Positions 2,909 through 12,332 of a stretch of DNA of 41,872 nucleotides are shown one piece after another. The notes under the pieces were generated by a model that was not told the origin of the DNA, did not search any database, and saw only the letters and a program-made list of their open reading frames with translations. Both the position numbers and the translations under genes were made by a program. Numbering within the stretch: position 1 is the first letter of the stretch; each line of letters starts with the position of its first letter. This stretch comes from Dehalococcoidales bacterium (lineage in GTDB: Bacteria; Chloroflexota; Dehalococcoidia; Dehalococcoidales; UBA5760): assembly GCA_021161775.1 (NCBI GenBank), contig JAGGZY010000022.1, forward strand, positions 1 to 41,872. The letters run 5' to 3'.

Positions 2909-3901
2909 ATGGGATTTGAGAATCAAGGAGTGAAGAGAAAGGTGCTGGCTATCCTGAGGGTATTGGCTGATTCTTCGGAGGTATTAGGAGCCAGGGTTAT
3001 TGCCCGCCGTCTGAAAGACCTGGGGGTAGGATTGGGGGAGAGGGCGGTAAGGTATCATCTCAAACTGATGGATGAGCGGGGGCTAACCCGGCTGGAGGGC
3101 AGGGATGGCCGTCTGATTACGGAGTTAGGAATTGAAGAGCTAAATAGCGCTTTGGTCAGGGATAAGGTTGGCTTTAGTATCTCTCGAATTGAGATGCTTG
3201 CCTTTCGTACCGATTTTGATTGGGATAAGCGGGCTGGTTTGATTCCGATTAACCTGTCCTTTTTCCCCAAGGAGAGATTCAGACAGGCATTAAGGATAAT
3301 GGAGCCGGTTTTTACTGCCGGGCTTTGCGTTAGCGATTTAGTTGCTATGGCCGATGAGGGGGAGACCTTTAACGGGTTAATTATTCCGCAGGGCAAGGTA
3401 GCCTTAGCTACTGTCTGCAGTATTGCGATAAATGGTGCCTTGCTTAAAGCGGGGGTTCCGATGGATTCAAGGTTCGGTGGCATTCTGCAGATGCGAAATC
3501 GTCAGCCGCTTCGCTTTGTGGAGCTGATTCACTATGCTGGTTCGTCGCTAGACCCCTCGGAGGTATTCATCAGGGCTAAAATGACCTCGGTAGCTGAGGT
3601 AGCCAGCAGTGGTAACGGAAGGCTACTGGCTAATTTTCGTGAGATACCTGCCTTGTGTCAGCCCATTGCTAACGAGGTGGTAGCCAAACTTGAGGAAGCC
3701 GGGCTGAGAGGGCTGATGGTGATGGGGAATACCAGTGAGCCGGTATGTGAAGTCCCGGTGGAGCTTAATCGACTGGGTATGGTGCTCATTGGTGGTTTAA
3801 ACCCGGTGGCGGCAGTTGAAGAAGCCGGTATTGAGGTTGAGACTCACGCGATGAGCACAGTTATGGAATACCGAGACCTGCTCCCTTTTAGCAAGCTGTG
3901 A
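2909..3901 (+). CDS. nrpR: NrpR-like transcriptional regulator (winged HTH + one DUF128/NrpR domain)
   Basis: NrpR represses nitrogen-assimilation genes in methanogenic archaea and is released by 2-oxoglutarate; related proteins occur in a few bacteria. The 330-residue protein has an N-terminal winged helix-turn-helix (residues 8-75, including IARRLKDLGVGLGERAVRYH) and a single NrpR domain of about 250 residues, ending with the repeat-like HAMSTVMEYRDLLPF. One effector domain corresponds to the shorter NrpRI-type architecture, not the two-domain form. It starts with ATG after GAGGAG. The glutamate synthase domain gene follows after 40 bp, and the other glutamate synthase genes diverge upstream, so these are the likely targets. 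The DNA-binding role is from the family; the operators are predicted. Confidence 0.82.
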   Translation: MGFENQGVKRKVLAILRVLADSSEVLGARVIARRLKDLGVGLGERAVRYHLKLMDERGLTRLEGRDGRLITELGIEELNSALVRDKVGFSISRIEMLAFRTDFDWDKRAGLIPINLSFFPKERFRQALRIMEPVFTAGLCVSDLVAMADEGETFNGLIIPQGKVALATVCSIAINGALLKAGVPMDSRFGGILQMRNRQPLRFVELIHYAGSSLDPSEVFIRAKMTSVAEVASSGNGRLLANFREIPALCQPIANEVVAKLEEAGLRGLMVMGNTSEPVCEVPVELNRLGMVLIGGLNPVAAVEEAGIEVETHAMSTVMEYRDLLPFSKL

Positions 3902-8476: not shown

Positions 8477-9322
8477 GTGGAACAGGAATTAACCGAACGC
8501 CAAAACCGGATTGTCCCCGGGGGAAGGGCAATGATATTAGCCTATGACCATGGTTTGGAGCATGGTCCCCGTGATTTTATAGCCAACCCCCTAAGCAGTA
8601 ATCTGGAGTATATTCTGGACATAGCTGGGCGAGGGGGATTTACCGGGATAGTATTGCATGCCGGACTGGCTGAAAAATACCAATCCCAGATTCAGAGCTC
8701 CGGGGTCCCCCTGATTCTCAAGCTGAACGGGACATCAGAACTTTATACCGAGGGAGACCCTTATTCCCCCCAGCTCTATTCGGTAGAGGATGCTTTGGCA
8801 CTGGGGGCAGCGGCGGTGGGATATACTGCCTATTCGGGGTCAAAATATGAGGCTCAGATGCATCGCGAATTCGCTAAGATAATCAGGGAAGCCCATAATA
8901 AAGGACTCCCGGTAATCGGCTGGATGTATCCCCGAGGTAAGTCCCTGTTTAATGAAAAATCGTCTTCAAAGACCCTGAAGATAGCTCAGGAAGAGCAACG
9001 AAAAACCGGTTTAGCTATTGATGAAGCCCCGTCGGTGGTTGCCTATGGAGCCAGAATAGGAATGGAGTTAGGTGCCGATGTGGTCAAGATTAAATACACC
9101 GGCAGTCAGGAGAGCTTCCGGCGGGTAGTCCACTCCGCTTTTCCCACCAGGGTGGTTATGTCCGGGGGACCAGCGACCAATACCGATGAGGAATTCCTCT
9201 ACCGGGTAAGGGATATCTTAGTCGCTGGGGCGGCTGGGGTAGCGGTAGGCAGAAATGTCTGGCAACGGAGTGACCCGCTGATTATCTGTCAGCAGCTACA
9301 TCATATTATCTTTGGTGATTAA
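8477..9322 (+). CDS. Class I fructose-bisphosphate aldolase, archaeal (DhnA/FbaB) type
   Basis: This 281-residue protein belongs to the archaeal-type class I aldolases (DhnA family), which cleave fructose 1,6-bisphosphate through a Schiff base with lysine. Asp24 lies in ILAYDHGLEHGP, and the probable Schiff-base lysine lies in DVVKIKYTG (Lys204 or Lys206). The phosphate-binding motifs VMSGGP and AGVAVGRNVWQ are in the C-terminal half. The GTG start is served by AGGAG overlapping the pfkA stop codon. The close spacing to pfkA suggests one transcript. Close paralogues make other products (for example 2-amino-3,7-dideoxy-heptulosonate synthase), but the pfkA context supports the glycolytic or gluconeogenic role. 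Confidence 0.85.
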   Translation: MEQELTERQNRIVPGGRAMILAYDHGLEHGPRDFIANPLSSNLEYILDIAGRGGFTGIVLHAGLAEKYQSQIQSSGVPLILKLNGTSELYTEGDPYSPQLYSVEDALALGAAAVGYTAYSGSKYEAQMHREFAKIIREAHNKGLPVIGWMYPRGKSLFNEKSSSKTLKIAQEEQRKTGLAIDEAPSVVAYGARIGMELGADVVKIKYTGSQESFRRVVHSAFPTRVVMSGGPATNTDEEFLYRVRDILVAGAAGVAVGRNVWQRSDPLIICQQLHHIIFGD

Positions 9323-9353: not shown

Positions 9354-9385
9354 TTGACAGCTGGTAGAAGGTGTAATAATATAAT
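9354..9385 (+). promoter_or_regulatory. Strong predicted promoter of the mod operon leader
   Basis: Perfect TTGACA (9354-9359) is followed by TAATAT after 17 bp (9377-9382), overlapping a perfect TATAAT (9380-9385) at 20 bp. Transcription from about 9390 would leave a leader of roughly 225 nt. Confidence 0.65.
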
Positions 9386-9394
9386 AGCAAATTA

Positions 9395-9505
9395 AAGATG
9401 TTTCCCGAGCCTGTTCTTCTAAAGGGATTGCCAATGAAGACTGGCCGTTAGGGTATCGTTAGAAATGATGATGCCTCCTGTGTTTGGAAAGGGGAGCCGT
9501 ATTAA
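9395..9505 (+). ncRNA. Molybdenum cofactor (Moco) riboswitch
   Basis: The leader contains GGGATTGCCA (9424-9433) and then GCCTCCTGTGTTTGGAAAGG (9473-9492), closely matching the conserved core of the moco RNA motif as remembered from the E. coli moaA leader. A short AU-rich hairpin (ATCGTT-AGAA-AATGAT type, 9454-9470) separates the two and resembles stem P3; its presence argues for the molybdenum rather than the tungsten (Tuco) variant. It lies upstream of a molybdate-type ABC transporter, a known regulon for this class. A terminator follows, so cofactor binding would be expected to stop transcription. The outer boundaries are approximate. Confidence 0.75.
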
Positions 9506-9521
9506 AAGTAATCGAGTTCTT

Positions 9522-9549
9522 AGGCACCTCTTTGAGGTGTCTATTTTTT
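9522..9549 (+). terminator. Intrinsic terminator of the riboswitch expression platform
   Basis: AGGCACCTC-TTT-GAGGTGTCT forms a 9-bp stem (one G-U pair) with a 3-nt loop, followed at once by ATTTTTT. It lies between the aptamer and the modA RBS, so it is an attenuator rather than the end of a gene. Confidence 0.85.
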
Positions 9550-9616: not shown

Positions 9617-10411
9617 TTGAAGAAGAGAATAATTTCTCTAGTCGGTGTTCTGGCGGTGGTTATCTCCCTGGTGGTGGGGGTAGTGGGGTGTGCTTCCCAG
9701 CCCCATCAGGAAACATCGATTATGGTCTACTGTGGGGCAGGAATGAAAAAACCAATGGATGAGATTGGTGAGCTGTTCCAGCAGCAATACGGCACTGAGG
9801 TTCAGTATAATTACGCTGGTTCTGATACCCTGTTAAGTCAGATGGAGCTTACCAGGAAGGGCGATGTCTATATACCCGGTGCTACGATGTATATTGATAA
9901 GGCTAGAGAGAAGGGACTTATCGATTATGAGCAACGGGTAGCTTATCATATACCGGTGATCGCGGTTCCGGAAGGAAATCCAGCTAATATAACCTGTTTG
10001 GATGGCCTTACCAAGCCCGGGGTAAAGGTTATTCTGGGGGATGCCAAGGTGGCGGCATGCGGCAAAATGGCTAAGAAGATACTGGAGAAAAAGGGAATTT
10101 TTGATGCTGTGGAGCCGAATGTTGTTGCTTACCGCGACACAGCAAGTAAGCTGGTGGTTGATATGTGTATGGGAACTGCTGAGGTAACCATAAATTGGCA
10201 GGCTTCATTTGTCGGGACCGAGGATAAAACGGATCTCATTGAGATACCCCGGGAGCAGAATATCATCAAGATAATCCCGATAGGCACGACTACCTTTTCC
10301 GAGCGCCAGAAGGTGGCGAAAGAGTTTGTTGATTTCTGTGCCTCTGACCAGGGAAAGGCTATCTTCAATAAGCATGGCTTTACTGCCTATCCCAGCCCTA
10401 AGTATGAATAA
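9617..10411 (+). CDS. modA: Molybdate/tungstate ABC transporter substrate-binding lipoprotein
   Basis: This 264-residue protein is the extracytoplasmic binding component that captures molybdate or tungstate. It begins with a lipoprotein signal: KKR, a hydrophobic stretch, and a lipobox VVGC with the lipidated Cys25. The ModA fold is shown by IMVYCGAGMKKPMDEIGELF, YAGSDTLLSQMELTRKGDVY and a C-terminal FVDFCASDQGKAIFNKHGF. The TTG start is 7 bp after AAGGAGG. It heads modA-modB-modC behind a Moco riboswitch, which supports molybdate as substrate; sequence alone cannot distinguish tungstate (WtpA/TupA-type). Confidence 0.85.
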   Translation: MKKRIISLVGVLAVVISLVVGVVGCASQPHQETSIMVYCGAGMKKPMDEIGELFQQQYGTEVQYNYAGSDTLLSQMELTRKGDVYIPGATMYIDKAREKGLIDYEQRVAYHIPVIAVPEGNPANITCLDGLTKPGVKVILGDAKVAACGKMAKKILEKKGIFDAVEPNVVAYRDTASKLVVDMCMGTAEVTINWQASFVGTEDKTDLIEIPREQNIIKIIPIGTTTFSERQKVAKEFVDFCASDQGKAIFNKHGFTAYPSPKYE

Positions 10412-10427
10412 CTATGTCTGGACATAG
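10412..10427 (+). repeat. Inverted repeat between modA and modB
   Basis: CTATGTC-TG-GACATAG is a perfect 7-bp inverted repeat starting at the base after the modA stop codon. There is no T-run, so it is not an intrinsic terminator. It could protect the 3' end of modA mRNA and favour the binding protein over the permease (inference). Confidence 0.5.
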
Positions 10428-10465
10428 CCGGGACAGACCTGGCAGATAGCGGGGTAGATAGATAC

Positions 10466-11275
10466 ATGTTACATGGGTTTAGTAAACCGAGGGGAACAAG
10501 ATTTAGAGTTATTACGCTGGGTTTTGGTGTTGCGCTGGCTATCTTTATCATATCCGTGCTCATCGGCGTGATTACCCACACTACGCCGCTGGCTTTTGTT
10601 CATAGCCTGGCCTCTAAAGAGATACACTTTGCCATCGGCTTGAGTTTAGTAACATCGGTTATCTCTACTATTTGGTGTATTGTGGTCGCTGTGCCGGCAG
10701 CATATTCCCTGGCTAGGGGTAATTTCCGCGGCAAGAGTTTGCTTAATGCGATACTGGATATGCCGCTGGCACTCCCTCCTCTGGTAGCTGGGGTTGGTTT
10801 ACTGATACTATTTGGGACAACAGCCTTTGGTAGTGAACTCGCTAAAGTCGGACTGGCATTTGTTTTCACTCCCAAAGGTATCGTTCTCGCCCAGTTCTTC
10901 GTGAATGTGCCATTTATGTTCCGGATAATGAGATCTACATTTCAGGGGATAAATCCCCGGTATGAATATGTGGCGCAGACACTGGGTTGCACTGAAGCGC
11001 AGACCTTCTGGCGGGTAACTATGCCGATGTCGAAGAATGGCTTGATGGCGGGGTCGATTATTACCTGGTGTAGAGGGATAGGTGAGTTTGGGGCAGCACT
11101 GATGGTGGCTGGAGCTACCAGAATGAAAACAGAGACTCTGCCCATCTTGCTATACCTGAATATGTCCTGTGGTGAATTGCCGTTAGCTATCGCCGCAGCG
11201 ACTATTCTGATTATCATATCGCTGGTATCGCTGTTTATCTTTGAAAAGTTTGGTGGTGCGGCTCGGGTATTCTAA
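10466..11275 (+). CDS. modB: Molybdate/tungstate ABC transporter permease
   Basis: This 269-residue membrane protein has about five to six hydrophobic helices and the permease EAA loop, YVAQTLGCTEAQTFWRVTMPM, which contacts the ATPase. The segment MPLALPPLVAGVGLLILFG is typical of ModB/WtpB-type permeases. It transports the oxyanion across the cytoplasmic membrane with ModA and ModC. The ATG start has only a weak upstream GGGG, consistent with lower expression than modA. A 54-bp gap with a hairpin separates it from modA, and modC follows after 10 bp. Confidence 0.88.
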   Translation: MLHGFSKPRGTRFRVITLGFGVALAIFIISVLIGVITHTTPLAFVHSLASKEIHFAIGLSLVTSVISTIWCIVVAVPAAYSLARGNFRGKSLLNAILDMPLALPPLVAGVGLLILFGTTAFGSELAKVGLAFVFTPKGIVLAQFFVNVPFMFRIMRSTFQGINPRYEYVAQTLGCTEAQTFWRVTMPMSKNGLMAGSIITWCRGIGEFGAALMVAGATRMKTETLPILLYLNMSCGELPLAIAAATILIIISLVSLFIFEKFGGAARVF

Positions 11276-11285
11276 GGGAATCAGA

Positions 11286-12332
11286 ATGATTAAAATCGAG
11301 CATATATCCAAGGATTTGGGGGAGTTTTTTCTTAAGGATGTGTCCCTTGATATCAACGATGGCGAGTATTTTATGCTATTGGGGCCCACCGGAGCCGGAA
11401 AAACAATTCTGCTGGAGACAATCGCTGGTATCTACCATCCCGACAAGGGTAGGATTATCCTCAACGGACGCGATATCACTAACCTCCCGCCGCGGGGCAG
11501 AAATATCGGTATGGTCTATCAGGACTATATGTTGTTTCCCTACCTGACGGTGGAAAAGAATATCCGATTTGGGCTAAGGTCAAAGAAGATTGCTGAAGCA
11601 GAGGTCAGCCGCCGGGTCGATGAACTGGCTAGTCTGCTGGGTATCTCCCATCTGCTCCATCGCTATTCGGGAACTATGAGTGGTGGTGAACAACAACGAG
11701 TGGCTATCGCCCGTGCCTTAATCATGGAGCCGGAGATATTACTCTTGGATGAGCCATTAAGCGCCCTGGATAATGAAACCAGGGGCCGATTGCGGGAAGA
11801 GCTGCGCAAAATTCATTCCCTGACCCAAACTACCATGATTCATGTTACCCATAGCTTTGACGAAGCCTTCATGCTGGGTAATCAGATGGCGATAATGAAT
11901 CAAGGGGGGGTTGTCCAGGTAGGTGAGCCCAGTGAGGTGTTCAGAAAACCCAATTCTAGATTCGCTGCTGACTTTCTGGGGGTCACTAACCTATTTCGAG
12001 GAGAAGCCACCATTGAAAATGGTATTTCCTATATCAGTGTAAATGGGGTAAAAATGGTATCCTCAATTCCCAAGTCAGGACCAGTTTATGTTTCAATCAG
12101 GCCTGAAGACATCCTCGTCTCCCTTAAACCAATTGACTCCAGTGCCCGGAATTCCTTTGCTGGCAACATTGAGGGTATTGCTGATAATGGGGTTGTCATC
12201 AAGGTTACGGTAAATGTCGGGGTTCCCTTTATTGTGGTAATTACCCGGCGTTCGTTTGACGATTTGCATCTGGAAAATGGTATGTTGGTATATATAACCT
12301 TTAAGGCATCAGCCGTCCATATCTTTAGCTAG
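11286..12332 (+). CDS. modC: Molybdate/tungstate ABC transporter ATP-binding protein
   Basis: The ATPase drives molybdate or tungstate import. The 348-residue protein has Walker A GPTGAGKT (33-40), signature MSGGEQQRVAIARAL (131-145), Walker B ILLLDEP (151-157), a switch His in MIHVTHSFDEA, and a C-terminal TOBE-like oxyanion-sensing domain from about residue 235. I chose ATG 11286, 8 bp after AAGGGA, over the ORF-track start at 11241, which would overlap modB by 35 bp. It is the last gene of the operon; a tRNA promoter begins 6 bp after its stop. Confidence 0.9.
   Translation: MIKIEHISKDLGEFFLKDVSLDINDGEYFMLLGPTGAGKTILLETIAGIYHPDKGRIILNGRDITNLPPRGRNIGMVYQDYMLFPYLTVEKNIRFGLRSKKIAEAEVSRRVDELASLLGISHLLHRYSGTMSGGEQQRVAIARALIMEPEILLLDEPLSALDNETRGRLREELRKIHSLTQTTMIHVTHSFDEAFMLGNQMAIMNQGGVVQVGEPSEVFRKPNSRFAADFLGVTNLFRGEATIENGISYISVNGVKMVSSIPKSGPVYVSIRPEDILVSLKPIDSSARNSFAGNIEGIADNGVVIKVTVNVGVPFIVVITRRSFDDLHLENGMLVYITFKASAVHIFS

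Follow-up and report, generated by a model that had tools for sequence, protein, structure and literature searches.

A P3-less RF01055 riboswitch with attenuator anatomy upstream of a molybdate/tungstate-type ABC importer operon in a Dehalococcoidales bacterium

Introduction

The leader of a three-gene ABC importer operon in a Dehalococcoidales bacterium (GCA_021161775.1) raises the question of which metal cofactor it may sense and how it may control metal uptake. The operon lies on contig JAGGZY010000022.1, positions 1 to 41,872 of which were analyzed and are referred to here as the window. A preliminary description of this DNA had proposed a molybdenum cofactor (Moco) riboswitch that regulates a molybdate transporter by attenuation.

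The Moco RNA motif family was described by Regulski et al. in 2008 (PMC2408646). In that set 58 of 176 RNAs have no P3 stem, and these were proposed to form a tungsten cofactor type (Tuco or WCo). Tungsten-related genes were found in 17 of the 19 organisms with P3-less RNAs. The E. coli RNA lost its regulatory function when P3 was removed and did not switch specificity. Terminator-type expression platforms were described as well, and in Pelobacter carbinolicus a P3-less RNA precedes a predicted molybdate transporter (PMC2408646). The tungsten cofactor riboswitch has been listed in later reviews on the basis of the 2008 work (PMC9971707, PMC10043782). In Dehalogenimonas, Moco riboswitches located 5' of moaA/moaC were reported in a 2026 paper (PMC13390414). 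Tungsten cofactor sensing by P3-less RNAs has been proposed since 2008, and we found neither a direct test nor a demonstration of binding in the literature, which gives the locus its value as a test case. Within this already published riboswitch family the locus itself is unexceptional, and the family is frequent in the lineage; what changes with respect to the preliminary description is the sub-type.

Results and Discussion

Identity and fold of the aptamer

A cmscan of the whole window against Rfam identified RF01055 at positions 9391-9510 of the forward strand with 74.5 bits (gathering cut-off 36, E = 2.4e-16) as the sole riboswitch. A scan of the local stretch returned the same match (E = 2e-18) and no other family. 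The match covers the full model (positions 1-135), and the leader precedes a molybdenum/tungsten-type importer (9617-12332). The Moco-motif segments described earlier are thus recovered by the covariance model, with an aptamer start four bases before the position 9395 given at that time. The following elements of the leader were assigned, with the aptamer helices taken from the model alignment mapped to the window:

9354-9382, forward strand: promoter-like sequence TTGACA-17-TAATAT just 5' of the aptamer, 10 of 12 consensus matches
9391-9510, forward strand: RF01055 aptamer of the P3-less sub-type, identified by cmscan and covariation in 35 relatives
9401-9406, forward strand: 5' strand of P1 (UUUCCC), partner 9491-9496
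9409-9445, forward strand: P2 stem, 9409-9419 with 9436-9445, with a degenerate inner stem and a receptor-like loop, supported by covariation
9446-9449, forward strand: junction at the expected site of P3, whose columns are deleted in the model alignment
9451-9476, forward strand: P4 hairpin with GAAA tetraloop, 9451-9461 with 9466-9476, supported by covariation
9477-9487, forward strand: P5, two pairs, 9477-9478 with 9486-9487
9489-9498, forward strand: 5' strand of the predicted antiterminator, AAGGGGAGCC, overlapping the 3' strand of P1 (9491-9496)
9521-9549, forward strand: intrinsic terminator, 10-bp stem 9521-9543 followed by U6 at 9544-9549, hairpin -13.8 kcal/mol

The promoter-like site is weak evidence taken alone, as 8 such sites were found against 5.9 expected.

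In the alignment to the family model the GGCC end of P2 is followed by few nucleotides and then by the AGGG of P4. The P3 stem between P2 and P4, which marks the Moco sub-type, is therefore absent, and the remaining core is kept as in the proposed tungsten cofactor sub-type. A P3-like hairpin had been described in this leader. Since the model alignment deletes P3 and joins P2 to P4 by few nucleotides, this hairpin is P4, the GAAA-capped stem at 9451-9476.

Conservation of the fold was analyzed by aligning 35 P3-less relatives of the same order, with 500 shuffles as the reference. Standard pairs occupy 84.7% of the helix cells compared to 75.8% after shuffling, and 155 cells are changed on both sides compared to 68.9, with 26 pairs showing changes on both sides. 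None of the 500 shuffles reached the observed value for pairing, for pairs with double changes or for doubly changed cells. As a control, sliding the partners by 1-3 columns reduced pairing to 40-50%. P1 is 93.8% paired with both sides changed in 5 of its 6 pairs, and P4 is 94.8% paired with both sides changed in 7 of 11. The outermost three-pair extension of the model P1 is unsupported in these relatives (38% paired), and P5 shows no double changes among them. Neither outcome named beforehand as contrary to the preliminary description, a missing covariance-model match or a lack of conserved pairing among relatives, was thus observed. The stretch is almost certainly a genuine RF01055 riboswitch with the anatomy of an attenuator.

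Terminator, antiterminator and direction of the switch

The terminator of the preliminary description is present, with its stem at 9521-9543 and the U6 tract ending at 9549. Its 5' arm and loop, GGCACCUCUU (9523-9532), can pair with AAGGGGAGCC (9489-9498), in letters AAGGGG-A-GCC with GGC-A-CCUCUU. This antiterminator shares positions 9491-9496 with P1 and 9523-9532 with the terminator, and its predicted duplex energy is -12.8 kcal/mol compared to -10.6 kcal/mol for P1. The three competing structures are predicted to be similarly stable. In folding predictions the antiterminator is part of the lowest-energy structure when the transcript ends at 9532, and longer transcripts go over to the terminator.

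A terminator lies at most 25 nt from the aptamer end in 67 of the 109 RF01055 matches of the order. In these 67 leaders the duplex between the 3' strand of P1 and the terminator arm has a mean energy of -10.1 kcal/mol, compared to -7.8 kcal/mol with dinucleotide-shuffled arms (Wilcoxon p = 5.5e-10). For the window leader alone the comparison with shuffled arms is not significant (p = 0.145). Shuffled arms were used in place of terminators swapped between genomes. In the swap test of antiterminator specificity 502 of 10,000 permutations were equally good, and it is uninformative because AAGGAG and CUCCUU are common to nearly all leaders. In two leaders, both from one genus, AAAGAG with CUCUUU replaces AAGGAG with CUCCUU.

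These predictions suggest the following mechanism. With little ligand, AAGGGGAGCC would pair with GGCACCUCUU, the polymerase would read through and the importer would be made. With ligand bound, P1 (9401-9406 with 9491-9496) would be held, the terminator (9521-9543 and U6) would form and the operon would be switched off. Because P1 competes with the antiterminator, a ligand that holds P1 is predicted to cause termination. Judged from folding and comparison, the element is very likely an OFF switch, and we infer that the antiterminator acts in this way in vivo. The attenuation design proposed earlier is supported; the assignment of Moco as its ligand, in contrast, does not find support, since P3-less RNAs are tied to the tungsten cofactor by the published set (PMC2408646) and by the contexts of the enzyme genes and moaA in the order.

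The RNA resembles the E. coli moaA RNA (RF01055) in P1, P2, the GAAA-looped P4 and P5, and a repression design based on the 3' strand of P1, as in that RNA, is predicted here. In the E. coli RNA, however, P3 is present and the ribosome-binding site is masked, whereas the window RNA is devoid of P3 and an intrinsic terminator follows it. With the proposed Tuco/WCo RNAs it shares the absence of P3, the terminator-type platform and a context of importer or tungsten enzyme genes.

The importer operon

The terminator is followed by three genes in the order binding protein, permease and ATPase (9617-12332, forward strand):

9617-10411, forward strand: divergent ModA-like substrate-binding lipoprotein with a TTG start, PF13531, TIGR01256 (modA) 88.3 bits (cut-off 62.5)
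10466-11275, forward strand: ABC permease of molybdate/tungstate/sulfate type, TIGR01581 251 bits (cut-off 210)
11286-12332, forward strand: ABC ATPase of the WtpC type with TOBE domain (PF03459), NF040840 (tungstate_WtpC) 479 bits (cut-off 440)

The operon has the binding protein, permease and ATPase layout common to WtpABC, TupABC and ModABC. However, neither all mod models nor all wtp models reach their cut-offs. On the mod side the binding protein passes, the permease just misses (modB 182.1 bits, cut-off 182.6) and the ATPase fails (modC 228 bits, cut-off 285). On the wtp side the ATPase passes as a WtpC equivalog, while the permease (WtpB 163.6 bits, cut-off 340) and the binding protein (WtpA 21.6 bits, cut-off 355) fail. 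In comparison with the proposed Tuco RNAs, the binding protein here is a divergent ModA relative and not TupA or WtpA, for which the Pelobacter carbinolicus case may be compared. The importer is of the group-6 oxyanion (molybdate/tungstate) type and not plainly ModABC. Control of an oxyanion ABC importer by the leader, as the preliminary description had it, agrees with this gene content; its designation as a molybdate transporter is unproven, given the WtpC-equivalog ATPase and the divergent binding protein.

The nearest relative found for the binding protein is archaeal (Ca. Methanolliviera, 69-70% identity), followed by proteins of Methanococcoides and Actinomycetota. Within the class the closest relatives are found in genomes G317 (61% identity) and G168 (59%). 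Relatives in the PDB are molybdate-binding proteins by name, with low similarity. In the alignment CGAGM stands where E. coli-type ModA has AASL, and a Trp lies near the usual Tyr. For binding proteins of this kind, annotation as 'modA' does not by itself imply molybdate as the substrate.

Elsewhere in the window, an NrpR-type regulator with HTH_12 and NRD1_2 domains is encoded at 2909-3901. Regulators of this type are best known from archaea.

The host genome

The host genome (0.93 Mb, 98.9% complete) carries two further RF01055 copies. The copy at C3:8155-8274 is P3-less and precedes an aldehyde:ferredoxin oxidoreductase (AOR) gene. The other (C17:1642-1778) has P3 and lies before a SAM methyltransferase gene, followed by a FecCD permease gene cut by the contig end. 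This second copy lies in locus L004 (854-1778 and 5-550; G000:C17), and the methyltransferase is of class I. The genes for molybdenum/tungsten enzymes in this genome comprise one AOR and two molybdopterin oxidoreductases, one of the formate dehydrogenase type, and moaA is present. Tungsten-related genes thus accompany the P3-less RNAs here, namely the AOR behind the other P3-less copy and the WtpC-type ATPase. A second dedicated molybdenum/tungsten binding protein was not found in the host genome, nor was a Peripla_BP_2 protein; its second SBP_bac_11 match is PstS-like and adjoins phosphate-type permeases.

Distribution of P3 and gene contexts in the order

RF01055 was detected in 68 of the 101 genomes of the order. 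The earlier remark that this class is known chiefly from other phyla describes the 2008 list fairly; in this lineage, however, the motif is frequent. The 109 matches in these 68 genomes were classified from a MAFFT alignment, because simple pattern matching did not work for many of the sequences, and comprise 77 P3-less and 32 P3-bearing RNAs. The P2-P4 junction is cleanly bimodal, with 4-5 nt in the P3-less and at least 17 nt in the P3-bearing RNAs.

Enzyme genes are divided between the two types. P3-less RNAs precede moaA in 12 cases and tungsten-type AOR genes in 5 cases (4 genomes), and P3-bearing RNAs in none. Genes of the DMSO reductase type (5 cases) and a xanthine dehydrogenase-type gene (1 case) are located only behind P3-bearing RNAs. 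Counted by genome, AOR and moaA against the molybdenum-type enzymes give a Fisher p of 1.3e-5 and AOR alone gives 0.005; these values overstate the evidence because the AOR cases represent two families, the DMSO reductase cases two and the xanthine dehydrogenase case one. Three genomes of one genus (G024, G054 and G082) have both arrangements, with AOR behind P3-less and DMSO reductase-type genes behind P3-bearing RNAs.

Importers are found behind both types: TupA behind 35 P3-less and 6 P3-bearing RNAs, WtpA behind 12 and 3, and ModA-like proteins behind 2 and 7. Relatives of the window binding protein follow P3-less RNAs in L085, L143 and G168:C39 and P3-bearing RNAs in G317:C18 and G168:C70. 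In an early view the aptamer-associated members of the CGAGM clade (window, L085 and L143) had P3-less RNAs and canonical ModA had P3-bearing ones. As a predictor of RNA type, however, the type of binding protein is broken by G317 and one G168 copy. The two G168 copies are L159 (G168:C70:2433-3398), behind a P3-bearing aptamer and with one in-frame TAG reported, and L153 (G168:C39:287-1370), behind a P3-less aptamer.

Per genome, the presence of AOR is weakly associated with P3-less RNAs (43/60 compared to 20/41, p = 0.023), and this association was not relied on because genome completeness and kinship confound it. The genus-mate G005 is an exception, with AOR present and all RNAs P3-bearing.

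The probable ligand

As the window RNA has no P3, its likeliest signal is the tungsten cofactor and not the molybdenum cofactor. Taken together, we consider it probable that this P3-less RF01055 riboswitch shuts off a group-6 oxyanion importer by attenuation in response to the tungsten cofactor (tungstopterin). This agrees with the position of the only AOR of the host behind a P3-less copy, with the WtpC-equivalog ATPase and with the occurrence of AOR and moaA behind P3-less and of molybdenum-type enzymes behind P3-bearing RNAs only. TupA and WtpA importers and relatives of the binding protein itself behind both types, as well as G005, speak against it, and so do the loss of control in the E. 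coli RNA without P3 (PMC2408646) and the small number of independent families behind the enzyme division. If tungstopterin is the ligand, the loop would be a feedback control of tungstate uptake, which would serve, among others, the single aldehyde:ferredoxin oxidoreductase of the genome.

The same riboswitch and attenuator could instead sense the molybdenum cofactor, with P3 as a dispensable peripheral stem and an operon that imports molybdate. The score of the binding protein above the curated modA cut-off, the molybdate-binding names of its PDB relatives, the occurrence of one importer family behind both RNA types and the host formate dehydrogenase-type genes, which may use molybdenum, would fit this. 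It is nevertheless unlikely in view of the strict division of the enzyme genes, the WtpC-type ATPase, the almost complete segregation seen in the 2008 set (PMC2408646) and the presence of both RNA types in the host genome.

An aptamer which does not discriminate and accepts either metal cofactor, so that the total amount of cofactor regulates the one dedicated group-6 importer that was found, is still less probable. A single such importer in a genome with both AOR and formate dehydrogenase-type genes and the interchangeable importer contexts are in line with it, but the P3-bearing host copy before the methyltransferase and FecCD permease would then be redundant, and the enzyme genes segregate strictly. 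A leader without regulatory role, decayed or similar to the motif by chance, in which motif-like sequence adjoins the terminator of the upstream aldolase-type gene, is very improbable: the terminator does lie downstream of this gene, but about 200 nt beyond its stop at 9322, the score of 74.5 bits exceeds the cut-off of 36, the P1-P2-P4-P5 core is intact, and the order aptamer, terminator, importer recurs across the order with covarying helices.

Returning to the tungsten cofactor as ligand, it may tentatively be suggested that the P3-less RNA is a true sensor of this cofactor and that the operon encodes a tungstate importer with a modA-labelled binding protein of the CGAGM clade unlike TupA and WtpA. 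If so, genomes of this lineage with both RNA types would run separate feedback loops for molybdenum and tungsten, and the pair of G168 binding proteins, one per RNA type, would offer a natural way to test what was proposed in 2008. For the question of P3, useful genomes are G024, G054 and G082 with both enzyme arrangements and G168 with paralogous binding proteins behind both RNA types.

Further arrangements of the aptamer

In the genus-mate G002 two tandem P3-less aptamers (L071:3275-3585; G002:C18:9474-9784) precede a gene whose exported product has about 820 aa. This protein belongs to no clear Pfam family; its homologue in G008, which gave one weak SdrD_B match, is located behind a single P3-less aptamer (L070; G008:C21:28043-28162). 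In genome G090 a P3-bearing and a P3-less aptamer are oriented divergently at a distance of 128 nt (L051; G090:C139:1197-1585). Each is followed by a gene for a small protein whose domain is PF00174-like and of the molybdopterin-binding type, and the P3-less side runs on into a FecCD permease, an ATPase and a FecB-type protein. The same genome has a P3-less aptamer 5' of a gene for a 739-aa radical SAM protein (L067:849-3391; G090:C80). One Coriobacteriia genome has a P3-less RF01055 aptamer before the gene for a relative of the window binding protein (L143:3379-3462 and 3775-3896), and a c-di-GMP-II-GAG riboswitch is located nearby on the opposite strand.
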